Of a DNA stretch of 64,000 bases, positions 11,677 to 17,004 are shown piece by piece. The stretch is taken from the NCBI RefSeq assembly GCF_006152065.1, contig NZ_VDFW01000009.1:62001-126000 (forward strand). Reading direction: 5' to 3'. A program made the position numbers and the translations under genes. Position 1 is the first letter of the stretch; the number at the start of each line of letters is the position of its first letter. This stretch comes from Amycolatopsis alkalitolerans. Its GTDB lineage: Bacteria; Actinomycetota; Actinomycetes; Mycobacteriales; Pseudonocardiaceae. A model generated the notes under the pieces. That model made no database searches, was not told where the DNA came from, and saw nothing but the letters and a program-made list of their open reading frames with translations.

Positions 11677-12051
11677 ATGGCAGAAACCACCGTGAGCGCG
11701 TTGAGCACCGCCGTGCCCGGGGTGCCCGGTGCGGCGGACATCCATGTGGAGCCGGGCCAGGTGCGCCAGGTGGCCAAGATCATCAGCGACCAGGCAGACG
11801 CGCTCGCCGACCGGGTGCGCCAGCTGCTGGTTGAGCTGACCATCGACCCGCCGGCGCAGGATGTGGTCAGCTCAACCGCGGTCGACGCGTGGAACAGGCT
11901 CGTCGCGCGCGGGGACGGCTCGTACGCCCATCGCGTGCAGAGCTACATCGACCAGCTGCGGCAACTCGCCGCGCAGTTGCGGACCGCGGCCGGCCACTAC
12001 CAGGCGGGCGAGGACGAGAAGATCGCGGCGCTCGAGGGGAAGGCGAAGTGA
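11677..12051 (+). CDS. Small helical WXG100/PE-like protein of the ESX locus
   Basis: A 124-residue helical protein (MAETTVSALSTAVPG...). After a short flexible N-terminus it is two predicted long helices: VEPGQVRQVAKIISDQADALADRVRQLLVELTI and a second with VDAWNRLVARGDGSYAHRVQSYIDQLRQLAAQLRTAAGHYQ. This is the hairpin expected of PE/WXG100-type partners. The C-terminal half contains YQAGEDEK, reminiscent of the YxxxD/E secretion tag. ATG 11677 follows CGGGAGAG with good spacing; GTG 11668 is possible. It starts a tightly overlapped operon with a PPE-like protein and EspG, so it is likely a type VII secretion substrate partner (inference from context). Confidence 0.75.
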   Translation: MAETTVSALSTAVPGVPGAADIHVEPGQVRQVAKIISDQADALADRVRQLLVELTIDPPAQDVVSSTAVDAWNRLVARGDGSYAHRVQSYIDQLRQLAAQLRTAAGHYQAGEDEKIAALEGKAK

Positions 12052-13625
12052 GCACCTTCGACAGCAGCCGCTACGACGTTCCGACGCTCGTCGAGAAGCT
12101 GCGGGACCAGCGCTTCGACGGCTACGACCCGGAGAGCCTCGCGCTCGAGGTCGAGAGGTTCCGCGAGGGCAGCGGCACGGCGAACATGGGCGACGCGGTC
12201 GAGGCCCTCAAGCAGATCGCCGGCGCGCTTTCGCACACCGACACGACGCTGCGTGAACAGCTCGGCGCGCTCGGGGTGTCGTGGCAGAGCCAGGCCGGCG
12301 GGCAGGCGAGCGCCGCCGTGTCCGGCCAGGCCGGGTTCTCCGCGGACGCCAACACGAAGGTGGCACAGGCCGCGGAGCTGATCTTCGAGCAGGGCGAGGC
12401 GTTCAACCGGACCAAGAACAAGCTGCCCGAACCCGACGCACTCCGCCAGGGCGAGGGCGGCTACACACTGGCCGACACGTTGTTCAGCCTCTTCGGCTTC
12501 GAGACCGATCACGCGGCGAGCGTGAAGACCGGTATCGAGGCGAAGGCGCAGGCCGTCGACGCGCTCAACGCGTATGCCCACGACAGCGGTGAGTATCTCG
12601 CCGCCTCGCAGCCGGTCGCGGAACCGCAGTCAATGCTGGCCTCGCCGGGTGCCGCCGTCGGGTCGGTCGCCGGGCCGACAATCGAGCCGGTCCCGCCGGC
12701 GCCCGAAGTGCCCGAGGTGCCGGACACGTCACCGACCGTGGCCGCGAGTGCGAAGGACGCGCCGGTCCAGACCTCACCCGTGACAGCGGCGGCGCCGTCA
12801 GCGAACGCGCCGACCGGCCTGCCGGTGTCCGCGCACCAGACCGGTGCCGGAGCGACAGCACCCTCCCAGGCGACCGTCCCGAGCACCGTCGCGGCGCCTG
12901 CGCCTGCCCCGGTGACCGAGCCGATCACCGCGGTCGTCGGCGGCTCCCAGCGGCCCGGCCAGCAGGAACGGACCAGCCAGCCGGAGACCGCCGCCAGGCC
13001 CTCCGGTCCGGGCCCGGTGGCTCCTCCCGCGCCCGGTCAGCAAGTCGGAGTCGGCGGCGGTGGGGTCGTGAGCGCGACGCCCGGCGGGGAGAAGTCGGCC
13101 GCCGCCCCGGGCAAGCCAGGCGGTGTACCGGCCGAAGGCGCGGGGCACGCGCTGCGGACCGGCGGCGAACGCTTGCTGGCGGAGGGAAAGTCCTTCGGCG
13201 CCGTAGCCGGTGGCGGGAGCGCGCCCGCGAACGTCGGGCTCGGGCTCGGCAGCGTCCGCGCCGTGGGCGGCGCCGGGGCGCTCGCGGAAGGTGCGCCCGC
13301 GATCGGTGCGGCCGGGGTCGGCGGCGTGACCAGCGGCGAACCGGAACGTGACCGGCCCGCCCGCGGTAGCGCACCGAAGGGCGCCCGCCCGTTGCCCATC
13401 GGCGACCTGCCGGAGGAAGAGGAAGCCCTGCGCGCCCGCAAGGCGGCGCCCGAGCCGCCGACCGGCCACCGCACGCGCGCGATCCTCGAACCGGCCGCGA
13501 CGCAGGACGGCGAGGAAGACGGTCACCACGTGCGCCGGTACGGCGTCGACGACCGCGACCTGTTCACCGATCCGCGTGAGGTCTCCACCGACCTCATCGG
13601 CGGCAAACCACTGCCGGAAGAGTGA
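12048..13625 (+). CDS. PPE-like/WXG ESX substrate with long Pro/Ala-rich tail
   Basis: 525 residues. About residues 1-180 are helical with a central GVSWQSQAGGQASAAVS segment (WxS/WxG-like turn) and an FGFETDHAASVKTGIEAKAQAVDALNAYAHDSGEYLAA helix. The remainder (~190-460) is low-complexity Pro/Ala/Gly/Thr, ending in an acidic-basic tail RRYGVDDRDLFTDPREVSTDLIGG. This is the layout of actinobacterial PPE-domain proteins. The GTG start at 12048 overlaps the previous stop (GTGA), so translation is coupled with the PE-like partner. The following EspG gene strongly supports a type VII secretion role; the tail may be exposed or interact with the wall (inference). Confidence 0.78.
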   Translation: MSTFDSSRYDVPTLVEKLRDQRFDGYDPESLALEVERFREGSGTANMGDAVEALKQIAGALSHTDTTLREQLGALGVSWQSQAGGQASAAVSGQAGFSADANTKVAQAAELIFEQGEAFNRTKNKLPEPDALRQGEGGYTLADTLFSLFGFETDHAASVKTGIEAKAQAVDALNAYAHDSGEYLAASQPVAEPQSMLASPGAAVGSVAGPTIEPVPPAPEVPEVPDTSPTVAASAKDAPVQTSPVTAAAPSANAPTGLPVSAHQTGAGATAPSQATVPSTVAAPAPAPVTEPITAVVGGSQRPGQQERTSQPETAARPSGPGPVAPPAPGQQVGVGGGGVVSATPGGEKSAAAPGKPGGVPAEGAGHALRTGGERLLAEGKSFGAVAGGGSAPANVGLGLGSVRAVGGAGALAEGAPAIGAAGVGGVTSGEPERDRPARGSAPKGARPLPIGDLPEEEEALRARKAAPEPPTGHRTRAILEPAATQDGEEDGHHVRRYGVDDRDLFTDPREVSTDLIGGKPLPEE

Positions 13626-14392
13626 GCGCCCCGCGGGGCAGCCTCGTGCTGTCCACCACGGAGTTCGACGTGCTGTGGGAGACCGAGCGGCTACCGCCGC
13701 CGCATCCCGCGCTGCGCGTGCTCAGCCCCGGCCGCACACACGGCGAACGGCGCGCCCTCGTCGCCGACGCGTGGCTGTCGCTGGGCGAACGGCGGCTGGC
13801 CCGCGGCACGCGCGCCTCCGGTGAGCTCGTCGATCAGCTGAACCTGCTCGCCCACCCGAAGGTGAGCATCGACATCTGGGTCTGGGCCGACCGGGAGATC
13901 AAGGGTCTCGCGGTCAGCACCGGCAGCCAGGCGCTGCTCGCGGTGATCGACCGCGACGAGGTGTGGCTGATCCCGGCGCGCGACACGTCGCTGCCCGAAT
14001 CCGCGGTCTCGGTCGCCGGCGAATTGCACGCCGGCGTCGGTCACTCGGTGAGCGTGCCGCACCGGATCGTGCGCGCCGCCGACGCGGACGCCAAGGGCGA
14101 GCCGAAGGCGCTGGTCACCGCGCTGGAGGACCGCGGGGTGGCGCTAGCGCAGGCGCAGGAGCTCGCCGGGATGATGGTCGGGATGGCCGCGCGCGGGCAG
14201 TTCGGGGTCGAGCGCCTGCGCCGTGACGGCGGGATGCGCCGCGGTGACCGGGTCGTCGCGTTCCACGACACCGATGCCGGCCGGTATCTCGTGCAGCTGG
14301 GCGCCGGGGCCGACGGCGACTGGGTGACCGTCGCGCCCGCGGACAACCAGCTGCTCGCCGCCCGGATCTGGGAGTTGCTGGAAGAGGTGTGA
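13622..14392 (+). CDS. ESX secretion-associated protein EspG
   Basis: A 256-residue cytosolic chaperone of the EspG family, which binds PE-PPE heterodimers before export. The protein opens SLVLSTTEFDVLWETERLPPPHPALRV, continues with the family's LVADAWLSLGERRLARGTRASGELVDQLNLLAHPKVSIDIWVW and ends with a beta-rich part including RYLVQLGAGADGDWVTVAPADNQLLAARIWELL. The GTG start at 13622 overlaps the upstream TGA (GTGA), indicating coupling to the two presumed clients. No ESX core genes (eccA-E, mycP) are in the window, so the cognate machine lies elsewhere. Confidence 0.88.
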   Translation: MSAPRGSLVLSTTEFDVLWETERLPPPHPALRVLSPGRTHGERRALVADAWLSLGERRLARGTRASGELVDQLNLLAHPKVSIDIWVWADREIKGLAVSTGSQALLAVIDRDEVWLIPARDTSLPESAVSVAGELHAGVGHSVSVPHRIVRAADADAKGEPKALVTALEDRGVALAQAQELAGMMVGMAARGQFGVERLRRDGGMRRGDRVVAFHDTDAGRYLVQLGAGADGDWVTVAPADNQLLAARIWELLEEV

Positions 14393-14482
14393 GCTCGGCT
14401 CACCGGTGCTAGAAAGATCGGGGAACCGCCGCCGCGGTGCGGGCGTCGGAACTACGAGTTTGCGCGAAGGGGGATGACGATC

Positions 14483-14827
14483 GTGTCGCAGCAGAGCGAT
14501 CCGGACTCGCTGGAGCACGTGGCCGGCAAGGTCGAGGATCTGCACGACCGCTTCAAGGACTCGAAACAGAAGATGATCGGGGTCGCGGGGCCGAATCCGT
14601 TCGGCGATATCAGGCACCCCGACCACGTCCCCGGCGAGCACCCCTCCGAGCACGCGGTCAGCGCGCTGCAGTCCTACCGGGACCGCATGCACGGCCAGTT
14701 CGACGCGGCGGCCGAGCTGATGAAGTCCACCGGCGGCGCCCTGCGTGACGCCGCGCGCGCCCTGCGCGGCACCGACGACGCGGCCAGGGACAGCGTCACC
14801 GTCAAGGACGGAAGCCTCGACCAATGA
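14483..14827 (+). CDS. Small ESX-like protein ahead of the WXG100-transglycosylase
   Basis: About 114 residues, helical, with SLEHVAGKVEDLHDRFKDSKQKMIGVAG and a second helix HAVSALQSYRDRMHGQFDAAAELMKSTGGALRDAARALRGTDDAARDS. This resembles the small partner (DUF-type, excreted virulence factor EspC-like) commonly encoded before a WXG100 effector. The frame also has ATG 14474, but the purine-rich AAGGGGG ends directly at 14473, leaving no spacer; GTG 14483 has a 9-nt spacer and is preferred. Its stop overlaps the next start (ATGA at 14824), arguing for a coupled two-gene unit. Confidence 0.7.
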   Translation: MSQQSDPDSLEHVAGKVEDLHDRFKDSKQKMIGVAGPNPFGDIRHPDHVPGEHPSEHAVSALQSYRDRMHGQFDAAAELMKSTGGALRDAARALRGTDDAARDSVTVKDGSLDQ

Positions 14828-17004
14828 GCGCGAAAGCCGAGTTCCCGCCGAACTGGAACGACGTCGAGACGAAGACCCAGCAGGTCGAGAACGTGCGCCC
14901 GGCCGCCATCCAGGGCGTCGCCGACCAGTTCCGGCAGGCCTCGAAGGACTCGGCCGACCACACGGTCGCGCTGCGCAACGCGACCGCGGCACTCGGCGGC
15001 GGCACCTGGTCCGGTGCGGCCGCCGACTCGTTCTTCAACTACGTCAAGCAGATCGGCGACGCGGGCCAGCGGGTCAACGACCACCTCGACGAGGTCTCGA
15101 ACGAGCTGACCAACCTGCAGGGCTTCCTCGATCGCACCCAGAAGGAGGTCCAGCAGCTCCGCGACGACGCGCACGGCAAGATCGACGGGCTCAACAAGCA
15201 GGCCCAGTCGGACGCCGACGCGGCGCAGGCGCAGATCGACGCGGTGAACAACCACAAGCAGGGCGCGACGATGCCGGCCCAGACGCCGGACCAGATCATC
15301 GCGGCGAATCTCAAGGTCACCACCGGGATCGCGAACGACGCGCAGACCCAGATCGGCGGCAAGCTCGACGGGGCCAACCAGGAGATCCAGCGGGTGATGG
15401 GCCTGGTGAAGCAGGACGTGGAGGGCGGGTACTCGTCAGTGCCGCCGCTGGGCACCCGACCGCAGTCGATGAAGAGCACCGGCGGCCTGCACGGCGGTTC
15501 GCACGGGTACTCCGGCGGCGGTGGCGGCGGTGGCGGCGGTCTCGGCCCGAGCGGCGGCCCTCCCGTGGGCAACCCGCCCGGCAACGTGCAGCAGTGGATC
15601 GAAGAGGCGATCAAGGAGCTGCAGGCCGCGGGCGTGAACGTCACCGATGCGGACATCAAGAACATCTGGGCGATCATCCAGCACGAGTCCGGCGGTAACC
15701 CACACGCGATCAACCTCTGGGACTGCGTGCCGCTGGGCACGGCAATTCTCACCCAGCGGGGCTGGCTCAAGCACGACGAAGTGGCGGTCGGGGACAGGAC
15801 GATCGGTTTCAACGCGGCGACCGGCCGCAGCGAATGGACCCGCGTGACCCGCATCGTCCACCACGCGGACGCGCCGCTGGTCAGGCTAGGCAATTCGCGC
15901 TGGTACGCGACGACGACGCCGAATCACAGGTGGCTCAACCTGCCGCGGACACATCTCACGCGAACCGATCTGCCCGCTGAATGCCCCGAATGCGGTTGGG
16001 GCCCGAGCAGTGGCAACGGTGTGGCGGTGCATCGCGGCAAGATCCACGGCGTCGTTCCGCCGAAGCAGCGGAACGAGTACGCGACCGAGGCGTCGTTCGT
16101 CGAAACGCGGGATGTGCGCAGCCGCGACCGTCTGGTGCTATCCGCGCCTGCGGACACGCCCGCCGGGCTCGACATCTCGGTGGTCGAAGCGGCGATCCTC
16201 GGCTGGATCGCCGGCGACGGACATGTGGAGAATCGCAGGCACCGGCCCACCATGTCCATCGCGCAGTCCAAGCCACCGATGGTGCAGAAGCTACGGCGGC
16301 TGCTCGACGGCGTGCCCCATGCGGTCTACGTCGACAACCGAGGCGGCTGCGGACCCCGCCATCAGTTCCGGCTCGATCACGACTATGCACAGGATCTGCT
16401 CATGCGGGCTGGGCACCCGAAGTCGGACGCGGTGGCCCAGGTCCTCGCGATGTCGACCGAGCAGCGCGCCGCCTGGCTGGAGGCGATCGTCGACGCCGAA
16501 GGCACCCGCGCGAAGTCGCTGACCGCGATCTACCAGGCGCCGGGCACGATCCTCGATGCGATCACGATCGCGGTCTACCTGTCCGGCCACCGCCCGCGCG
16601 TGCTGCGTTCCGTGCGGTCGCACCGGCCGGCGAGCTGGCTGCCGGAGGCATCCGTGCGGCCCAACACCCCGGTCGTCACTGGCGCTTTCCTGACCAGGGA
16701 GAACGCGGGCCGTGCCGACGTCTGGTGCGTGACGACCGAGCTCGGTACGTGGACGGCTAGGGAGGACGAGCACGTCTTCCTCACCGGGAATTCCAACGCC
16801 GCCGCTGGGCATCCGTCCAAGGGCCTCATGCAGTGCATCGATTCGACGTTCAACTCGAACAAGCTGCCCGGGCACGACGACATCTACAACCCGGTGGACA
16901 ACATCATCGCCGGGGTGCGGTACACGATCGGCCGGTACGGCAGCATCGCGAACACCCCCGGGCTGGCGTCGATGGCCCATGGTGGCGGCTACGTCGGTTA
17001 CTAG
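14824..17004 (+). CDS. WXG100-lytic transglycosylase protein interrupted by an intein
   Basis: A 726-residue precursor. Residues 1-~220 are an ESX-type helical domain with the W62-S-G turn (GGTWSGAAADSFF) and long coiled helices. A glycine-rich linker (~236-256) follows. The transglycosylase (SLT) domain starts near 265, with Glu288 in IWAIIQHESGGNPHAINLWD, breaks at residue 300, and resumes at 657 with SNAAAGHPSKGLMQCIDSTF and YNPVDNIIAGVRYTIGRYG. Residues 301-656 are an intein, so the mature protein would be 370 residues. Substrate: peptidoglycan glycan strands, probably after ESX-type export. The insertion falls between the catalytic Glu motif and the conserved GLMQ motif, so the unspliced form should be inactive (inference). 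Confidence 0.9.
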   Translation: MSAKAEFPPNWNDVETKTQQVENVRPAAIQGVADQFRQASKDSADHTVALRNATAALGGGTWSGAAADSFFNYVKQIGDAGQRVNDHLDEVSNELTNLQGFLDRTQKEVQQLRDDAHGKIDGLNKQAQSDADAAQAQIDAVNNHKQGATMPAQTPDQIIAANLKVTTGIANDAQTQIGGKLDGANQEIQRVMGLVKQDVEGGYSSVPPLGTRPQSMKSTGGLHGGSHGYSGGGGGGGGGLGPSGGPPVGNPPGNVQQWIEEAIKELQAAGVNVTDADIKNIWAIIQHESGGNPHAINLWDCVPLGTAILTQRGWLKHDEVAVGDRTIGFNAATGRSEWTRVTRIVHHADAPLVRLGNSRWYATTTPNHRWLNLPRTHLTRTDLPAECPECGWGPSSGNGVAVHRGKIHGVVPPKQRNEYATEASFVETRDVRSRDRLVLSAPADTPAGLDISVVEAAILGWIAGDGHVENRRHRPTMSIAQSKPPMVQKLRRLLDGVPHAVYVDNRGGCGPRHQFRLDHDYAQDLLMRAGHPKSDAVAQVLAMSTEQRAAWLEAIVDAEGTRAKSLTAIYQAPGTILDAITIAVYLSGHRPRVLRSVRSHRPASWLPEASVRPNTPVVTGAFLTRENAGRADVWCVTTELGTWTAREDEHVFLTGNSNAAAGHPSKGLMQCIDSTFNSNKLPGHDDIYNPVDNIIAGVRYTIGRYGSIANTPGLASMAHGGGYVGY
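15724..16791 (+). mobile_element. Class 1 intein with LAGLIDADG homing endonuclease
   Basis: A 356-residue in-frame insertion (residues 301-656). The splice junctions are LWD|CVPLGTAILTQRGW and VFLTGN|SNAAAG: Cys1, terminal Asn and +1 Ser are present. Block B has TTTPNH (His368). The endonuclease blocks are ILGWIAGDGHV (458-468) and WLEAIVDAEG (551-560), both with the acidic residue. Block F is VWCVTTELGTWTARED. The penultimate residue is Gly655 rather than the usual His. A CPEC pair (387, 390) sits in an insert after block B. Both LAGLIDADG copies look intact, so homing may still be possible. Confidence 0.9.

Follow-up and report, generated by a model that had tools for sequence, protein, structure and literature searches.

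An intein of 356 residues interrupts the gene of a predicted wall-cutting enzyme in Amycolatopsis alkalitolerans; the window (the whole stretch of DNA analysed) is 64,000 nucleotides long. It is very probably a mobile, selfish homing intein of a phage-centred family, one that would have to splice before the enzyme can function. Its anatomy, precise empty sites in orthologues, a sporadic distribution, an insertion site shared with phages and a pair of phage and chromosomal copies are observed directly. The data suggest a selfish element that moves between phage and host through one shared enzyme fold.

Among bacterial inteins, 62% are found in replication, recombination and repair proteins (PMC5874633), which bears out the remark in the first-pass annotation that this host gene is unusual. 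Among the titles and abstract beginnings listed from the open literature, which leaves most subscription papers outside, none reports an intein in the context of a transglycosylase, WXG100, peptidoglycan hydrolase, Amycolatopsis or tape measure, or in a tape-measure SLT domain. One intein lineage repeatedly invades one wall-cutting fold: its targets are phage proteins as well as a host enzyme, the latter at a codon boundary also used in phages. The old question of intein crossing between phage and host thus becomes testable at one defined site.

Host gene and intein anatomy

The features of the locus are:

13622..14392, + strand: EspG-family gene, from a family of type VII secretion chaperones; Pfam PF14011, E 5.4e-63
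14474..14827, + strand: small WXG100-like gene that runs into the first bases of the precursor ORF; WXG100 match below threshold
14824..17004, + strand: precursor ORF, WXG100-SLT transglycosylase split by the intein; 726 aa, predicted 370 aa once spliced
14893..15117, + strand: WXG100 domain, residues 24-98; Pfam PF06013, E 1.3e-9, over the cut-off
15685..15687, + strand: Glu288, in the HESGG motif read from the sequence; presumably the catalytic acid of SLT
15724..16791, + strand: intein, 356 aa, Cys1 to Asn356, residues 301-656 of the precursor
15724..15765, + strand: block A, CVPLGTAILTQRGW, including Cys1, which is invariant in the 28 rows of alignment A2
15916..15933, + strand: block B, TPNHRW; contains TxxH, and its Trp, at B:12, gives the W of the WCT triplet
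15982..16047, + strand: C2H2-like stretch CPECGW...H...H, possibly an accessory DNA-binding finger
16195..16221, + strand: first LAGLIDADG motif, ILGWIAGDG; Pfam LAGLIDADG_3, 22.9 bits (cut-off 22.5)
16468..16503, + strand: second LAGLIDADG motif, AAWLEAIVDAEG, as seen in the sequence and in alignment A1
16720..16758, + strand: block F, VWCVTTELGTWTA; its Cys335 (16726-16728) is at F:4 and gives the C of WCT
16774..16791, + strand: block G, VFLTGN, with the Thr at G:5 (T of WCT), the penultimate Gly and Asn356
16792..16794, + strand: Ser657 (Ser+1, first C-extein residue); Ser in 26/26 chromosomal copies
16822..16833, + strand: GLMQ motif of the SLT domain, C-extein, as read from the sequence

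The host protein contains both the ES and the GLMQ motifs; by sequence it is an SLT lytic transglycosylase, and its activity is predicted. The Glu of HESGG is the established catalytic acid of the SLT family. The Pfam SLT profile (cut-off 21.3) scores 45.4 bits on an intein-free orthologue and 38.5 bits on the precursor, where it is split in two pieces. This confirms from sequence the earlier placement of the insertion between the Glu288 motif and GLMQ; given the split domain, the unspliced precursor may fairly be expected to be inactive. The NCBIfam WXG100 model TIGR03930 scores 41.1 bits on the precursor, slightly below its cut-off of 44.85.

Pseudonocardiaceae WXG100-SLT transglycosylases beside EspG share the host gene and its upstream neighbour with the window. 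An EspG homologue lies upstream in all 26 loci tested (24 distinct genomes) and a homologue of the small WXG100-like gene in 24 of the 26, at intein-bearing and intein-free loci alike. An EccC gene (781 bits) is located on a different contig of the window's genome. Type VII (ESX) secretion of the enzyme is a plausible prediction from the WXG100 domain, the nearby EspG and the genomic EccC. The ORF upstream of EspG (11889-13625) is without a significant Pfam match and resembles a type VII substrate; its GTG start is possibly placed too far upstream.

The insertion has a Hint fold and blocks A, B, F and G, and it is in frame and missing from orthologues. Residues T65, H68 and W70 in block B, V333, W334 and C335 in block F, and T354, G355 and N356 in block G are invariant in the 28 rows of alignment A2. 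Two LAGLIDADG motifs with acidic residues are present. A complete intein with a clean Cys/Asn-Ser junction had been proposed; the core blocks, both endonuclease motifs and the empty orthologues, which match the junction, uphold this. GC3 is 0.86 in the intein, compared to 0.95 and 0.91 in the exteins.

The C2H2-like pattern occurs in 21 of the 26 chromosomal copies and is absent from the five shortest; zinc-ribbon matches are weak and below threshold in three of six relatives scanned. A phage copy (L032) has two CxxC stretches at this position. The predicted structure model matches inteins bearing a homing endonuclease (HEN). PDB sequence searches gave no match for the SLT domain alone and no convincing match for the single intein, while a search with the intein profile found one intein at E 0.0009.

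Splicing, homing and secretion are predictions from these sequences. The LAGLIDADG endonuclease would recognise the DNA for a conserved SLT active-site stretch, with a target around TGGGAY^TCNAAY as judged from the flanks, and homing would copy the intein into empty alleles. This stretch is shared by the SLT domain of long, tape-measure-like phage proteins and, on Pseudonocardiaceae chromosomes, the type VII-linked WXG100-SLT enzyme, so that the element could pass between them. Splicing would begin with an attack on the Asp300-Cys301 bond by Cys1 and/or Cys335 (F:4), both being candidates; the acyl group would move to Ser657 and Asn356 would then cyclise. Excision would join the 370-residue enzyme and restore its function.

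Distribution and selection in host chromosomes

The intein is present in the window and absent from most congeneric genomes. In 19 congeneric genomes the gene is intein-free in 14, intein-bearing in four and uncalled in one; in the 14, it reads straight through residue 300/657, as expected if the annotated junction is correct. Intein-free genes that are contiguous across the site were also found at 47 of 51 chosen loci. An intein match (E 0.001 or better) is present in 32 of 390 Pseudonocardiaceae genomes; six weak matches were left out (G202, G216, G229, G271, G316 and G319; E 6e-8 to 9e-4). The 26 strong matches are all in this gene and all at the identical codon boundary; four belong to the window's genus, 20 to one other genus and one each to two more. 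Nine named intein-bearing records were found, including Amycolatopsis sacchari, A. taiwanensis, A. pretoriensis, A. orientalis, A. palatopharyngis and Qaidamihabitans albus; the intein-bearing strains of the first two are A. sacchari DSM 44468 and A. taiwanensis DSM 45107. There was no intein match among 72,556 plasmid records. One genome (G159) has two equal-scoring intein copies, C1:675555 and C42:44718, possibly an assembly duplicate.

On a host-gene tree of 73 N-exteins (26 with and 47 without intein), intein presence needs 16 changes, a rough count, since the tree includes a few paralogues and long branches and its empty alleles were chosen; 14 of these changes are forced by well-supported branches. 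The sister of the window's gene (G012) is intein-free. Shuffled labels need 21.7 changes on average, and only 1 of 500 shuffles is as low as the observed value; intein presence is therefore partly inherited. Losses may account for some of the changes.

In nine pairs of copies, dN/dS is 0.00-0.21 in the N- and C-terminal splicing segments and 0.17-0.30 in the middle segment, which contains the endonuclease. Two copies with an eroded endonuclease (279 and 251 aa) retain all checked splicing residues. In the first LAGLIDADG motif, GDG is kept in 14 of the 16 chromosomal copies (out of 26) shown in alignment A1. This pattern fits an element which is obliged to splice and, in most copies, is perhaps still homing.

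Homing can leave a direct trace in the flanks through co-conversion; a search for such tracts found none. Phage copy L031 and chromosomal copy L056 both have AQNNWD next to the site, which was considered as a co-converted tract and rejected; G039, a same-genus relative without the intein, has AQNNWD too. A target-codon imprint at Ser+1 was likewise rejected: TCN is found in 25/26 intein-bearing and 41/47 empty alleles, a small difference. With just 14 empty alleles, an initial comparison had found TCN at Ser+1 to be rarer in these than in intein-bearing alleles.

Phage relatives

The intein belongs to a phage-centred family. A first scan of viral contigs found five relatives; two of these, in long phage ORFs, are inserted at exactly the window's site:

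L031, junctions: ESGGNPNAQNNWD^C...TGN^SNARAGTPSQGLMQ
L032, junctions: ESGGNQFAVNKWD^C...TGN^SNWARGTPSVGLAQ

Identity to the window's intein, over the best segment, is 58% for L031 and 48% for L032, and in both the site-flanking DNA is TGGGAC^TCCAAC, identical to the window. The N-extein of L031, the only one whose host protein was compared, gives a 25-27% match to Gordonia phage tape-measure genes. The long phage host proteins are probably tape measures; for those other than L031, this comes from reading the sequences.

A profile scan of viral contigs gave 38 loci, of which 36 could be parsed (L232 and L233 are outside this set). Only 2 of the 36 use the window's exact site. Nine of the 36 joined exteins hit a profile built from 47 SLT domains of intein-free host genes at E <1e-8, with the insert inside the domain. 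Six SLT sites are used: E^SGGN (three near-identical contigs), NN^SD, NxWD^SN (two), GLMQ^T, VVAD^SW and YG^S. Ten further loci with a GIPQ-type or other site match this profile weakly (E 0.003 to 2) and are excluded from the SLT count (L033, L034, L205, L208-L212, L218 and L227); their sequences look like more divergent SLT domains. Several other viral host proteins presumably resemble DNA polymerase I.

In some phage copies the presumed catalytic Glu is immediately followed by the intein (E^SG): L206, L207 and L223, which match the SLT profile, and L205, L210, L211 and L212, which are SLT-like by eye.

Among 50,697 annotated phage records, 92 match the intein. The best matches, at 29% identity, are in tape-measure proteins of Gordonia phages Mcklovin and Twinkle; more distant kin are found in DNA polymerase I of Escherichia phage nieznany, a DNA methyltransferase of Mycobacterium phage Atcoo and the portal protein of Gordonia phage Belphegor. 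The Mcklovin and Twinkle inteins match the window's over its full length and share Cys1 and WCT; they differ in site (NADH^C...TSN^S) and have a penultimate Ser. Neither is mentioned in the feature tables (L066 3501-4556 and L067 3501-4556), which give tape measure protein only.

In the intein tree, phage copy L031 pairs with chromosomal copy L056 (support 97/95); the chromosomal copies are thus not a single clade. Rooting is weak and deeper branches are poorly resolved, so the tree does not fix the phage-to-host direction.

Splicing centre and rival explanations

All 26 chromosomal copies have Cys1, TxxHxW, VWC, TGN, the WCT triplet and the penultimate Gly. In the 36 parsed viral copies, Cys1 is found in 36, WCT in 35 (the sole exception, L229, is cut short) and TGN in 34. 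Comparison of the copies shows the penultimate Gly to be a family trait, normal in this intein lineage. The first-pass annotation had called it unusual and suggested that it may slow Asn cyclisation; a defect is not supported, given its conservation in 26/26 chromosomal copies and the mycobacteriophage Bethlehem RDF intein, in which a natural penultimate Gly allows full splicing while the G316H variant takes more than 5 h to reach about half (PMC5050341). As described there, the Bethlehem gp51 RDF intein, assigned to class 1 with Cys as the initiating nucleophile, resembles the window's in its N-terminal Cys, penultimate Gly, phage setting and endonuclease. It differs in host gene; the two were compared by description only.

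The lack of a penultimate His would suit an intein that does not splice or only cleaves, leaving the host protein dead or working in another form. This is most improbable. Besides the Bethlehem precedent, the splicing residues are in open frame in 26/26 chromosomal copies and dN/dS in the splicing segments is low in nine pairs. With the precursor as query, the window's genome gave no second match to the host gene at E 0.001, so a spare copy of the enzyme is not evident. It is also improbable, if slightly less so, that the intein is a domesticated regulator whose splicing is withheld until a signal (redox, zinc or secretion), keeping the wall-cutting enzyme harmless in the cytoplasm. The intein does split the active site, oxidation is reported to inhibit splicing of one mycobacterial DnaB intein of class 3 by way of the F:4 Cys (PMC6195587), and intein-bearing genes cluster to some extent on the host tree, as the shuffles show. 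Copies without an intact endonuclease also persist; in these, loss of homing did not entail loss of the intein. However, close orthologues lack the intein, the middle segment has dN/dS 0.17-0.30 in 9/9 pairs, and kin are found in phage DNA polymerase, methyltransferase, portal and tape-measure-like proteins. The safety switch suggested earlier is not supported and has little in its favour other than the position of the intein: scattered presence (16 changes, 14 of them forced), an empty sister and kinship with phage inteins are the pattern of a mobile element.

A separate question, compatible with a selfish homing intein, is whether Cys335 alone starts splicing, as in the class 3 mechanism, with Cys1 a leftover. 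This is possible but doubtful. Like class 1 inteins, which have Cys, Ser or Thr at position 1, the family has Cys1; like class 3 inteins such as mycobacterial DnaB-1 (PDB 6bs8, 6rix), it has a Hint fold and WCT at B:12, F:4 and G:5 (positions as in PMC3196547 and PMC5050341). Class 3 inteins are defined as lacking an N-terminal nucleophile and have no Cys at position 1 (PMC7891396), though a looser wording states that position 1 is not required (PMC5222942); they are generally without the Thr of TxxH (PMC6195587). In contrast, the window's intein has an invariant Cys1 (28 rows), TxxH and a penultimate Gly; the family therefore fits one class 3 hallmark and fails another. In addition, a Cys at F:4 is also known from class 1 inteins (PMC4031507).

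In profile comparison the splicing parts are closer to class 3 DnaB inteins, for which nine subsamples (2, 3 or 6 sequences each) gave a probability of 87-95 and E values from 4e-6 to 6e-8, than to class 1 inteins, for which three sets (2, 3 and 6 sequences) gave probabilities of 5.5, 59 and 1.7; the class 1 sets are few and lack RecA, and the set giving 1.7 was badly trimmed. The controls, one reversed and three shuffled, scored 0.1-0.2. With the predicted structure model, class 3 DnaB structures are the highest in sequence identity (23-25%) among the 50 structural matches listed, but the class 3 structure AceL NrdHF reaches only 12%. Against a class 3 assignment, the tree of splicing blocks puts the family in its own clade (100/99), outside class 3; this tree carries long-branch warnings and block B is shortened in several rows.

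A phage origin has been proposed for class 3 inteins (PMC3196547, PMC5050341), and LAGLIDADG motifs are found in 82.5% of 1701 of them (PMC7891396). If Cys335 alone starts splicing, the family would resemble this proposed phage-borne progenitor. Tentatively, it may be a separate intein lineage with two complete start chemistries, possibly started from F:4 with Cys1 dispensable (a living class 3 progenitor), specialised in phage-tail SLT domains at at least six sites and bridging to chromosomes via the type VII-linked host enzyme. With Cys1 and WCT in one centre, two point mutants could test how class 3 splicing arose.

The NCBI N-terminal intein model misses the window's intein in its own genome; the lineage may thus be under-annotated. 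The model does report four other places in this genome: C9:121028 (L097), C1:363319 (L122), C1:365045 (L123) and C65:176455 (L124). We take the flanks to be RecA-like at L097 and GyrB-like at L122.
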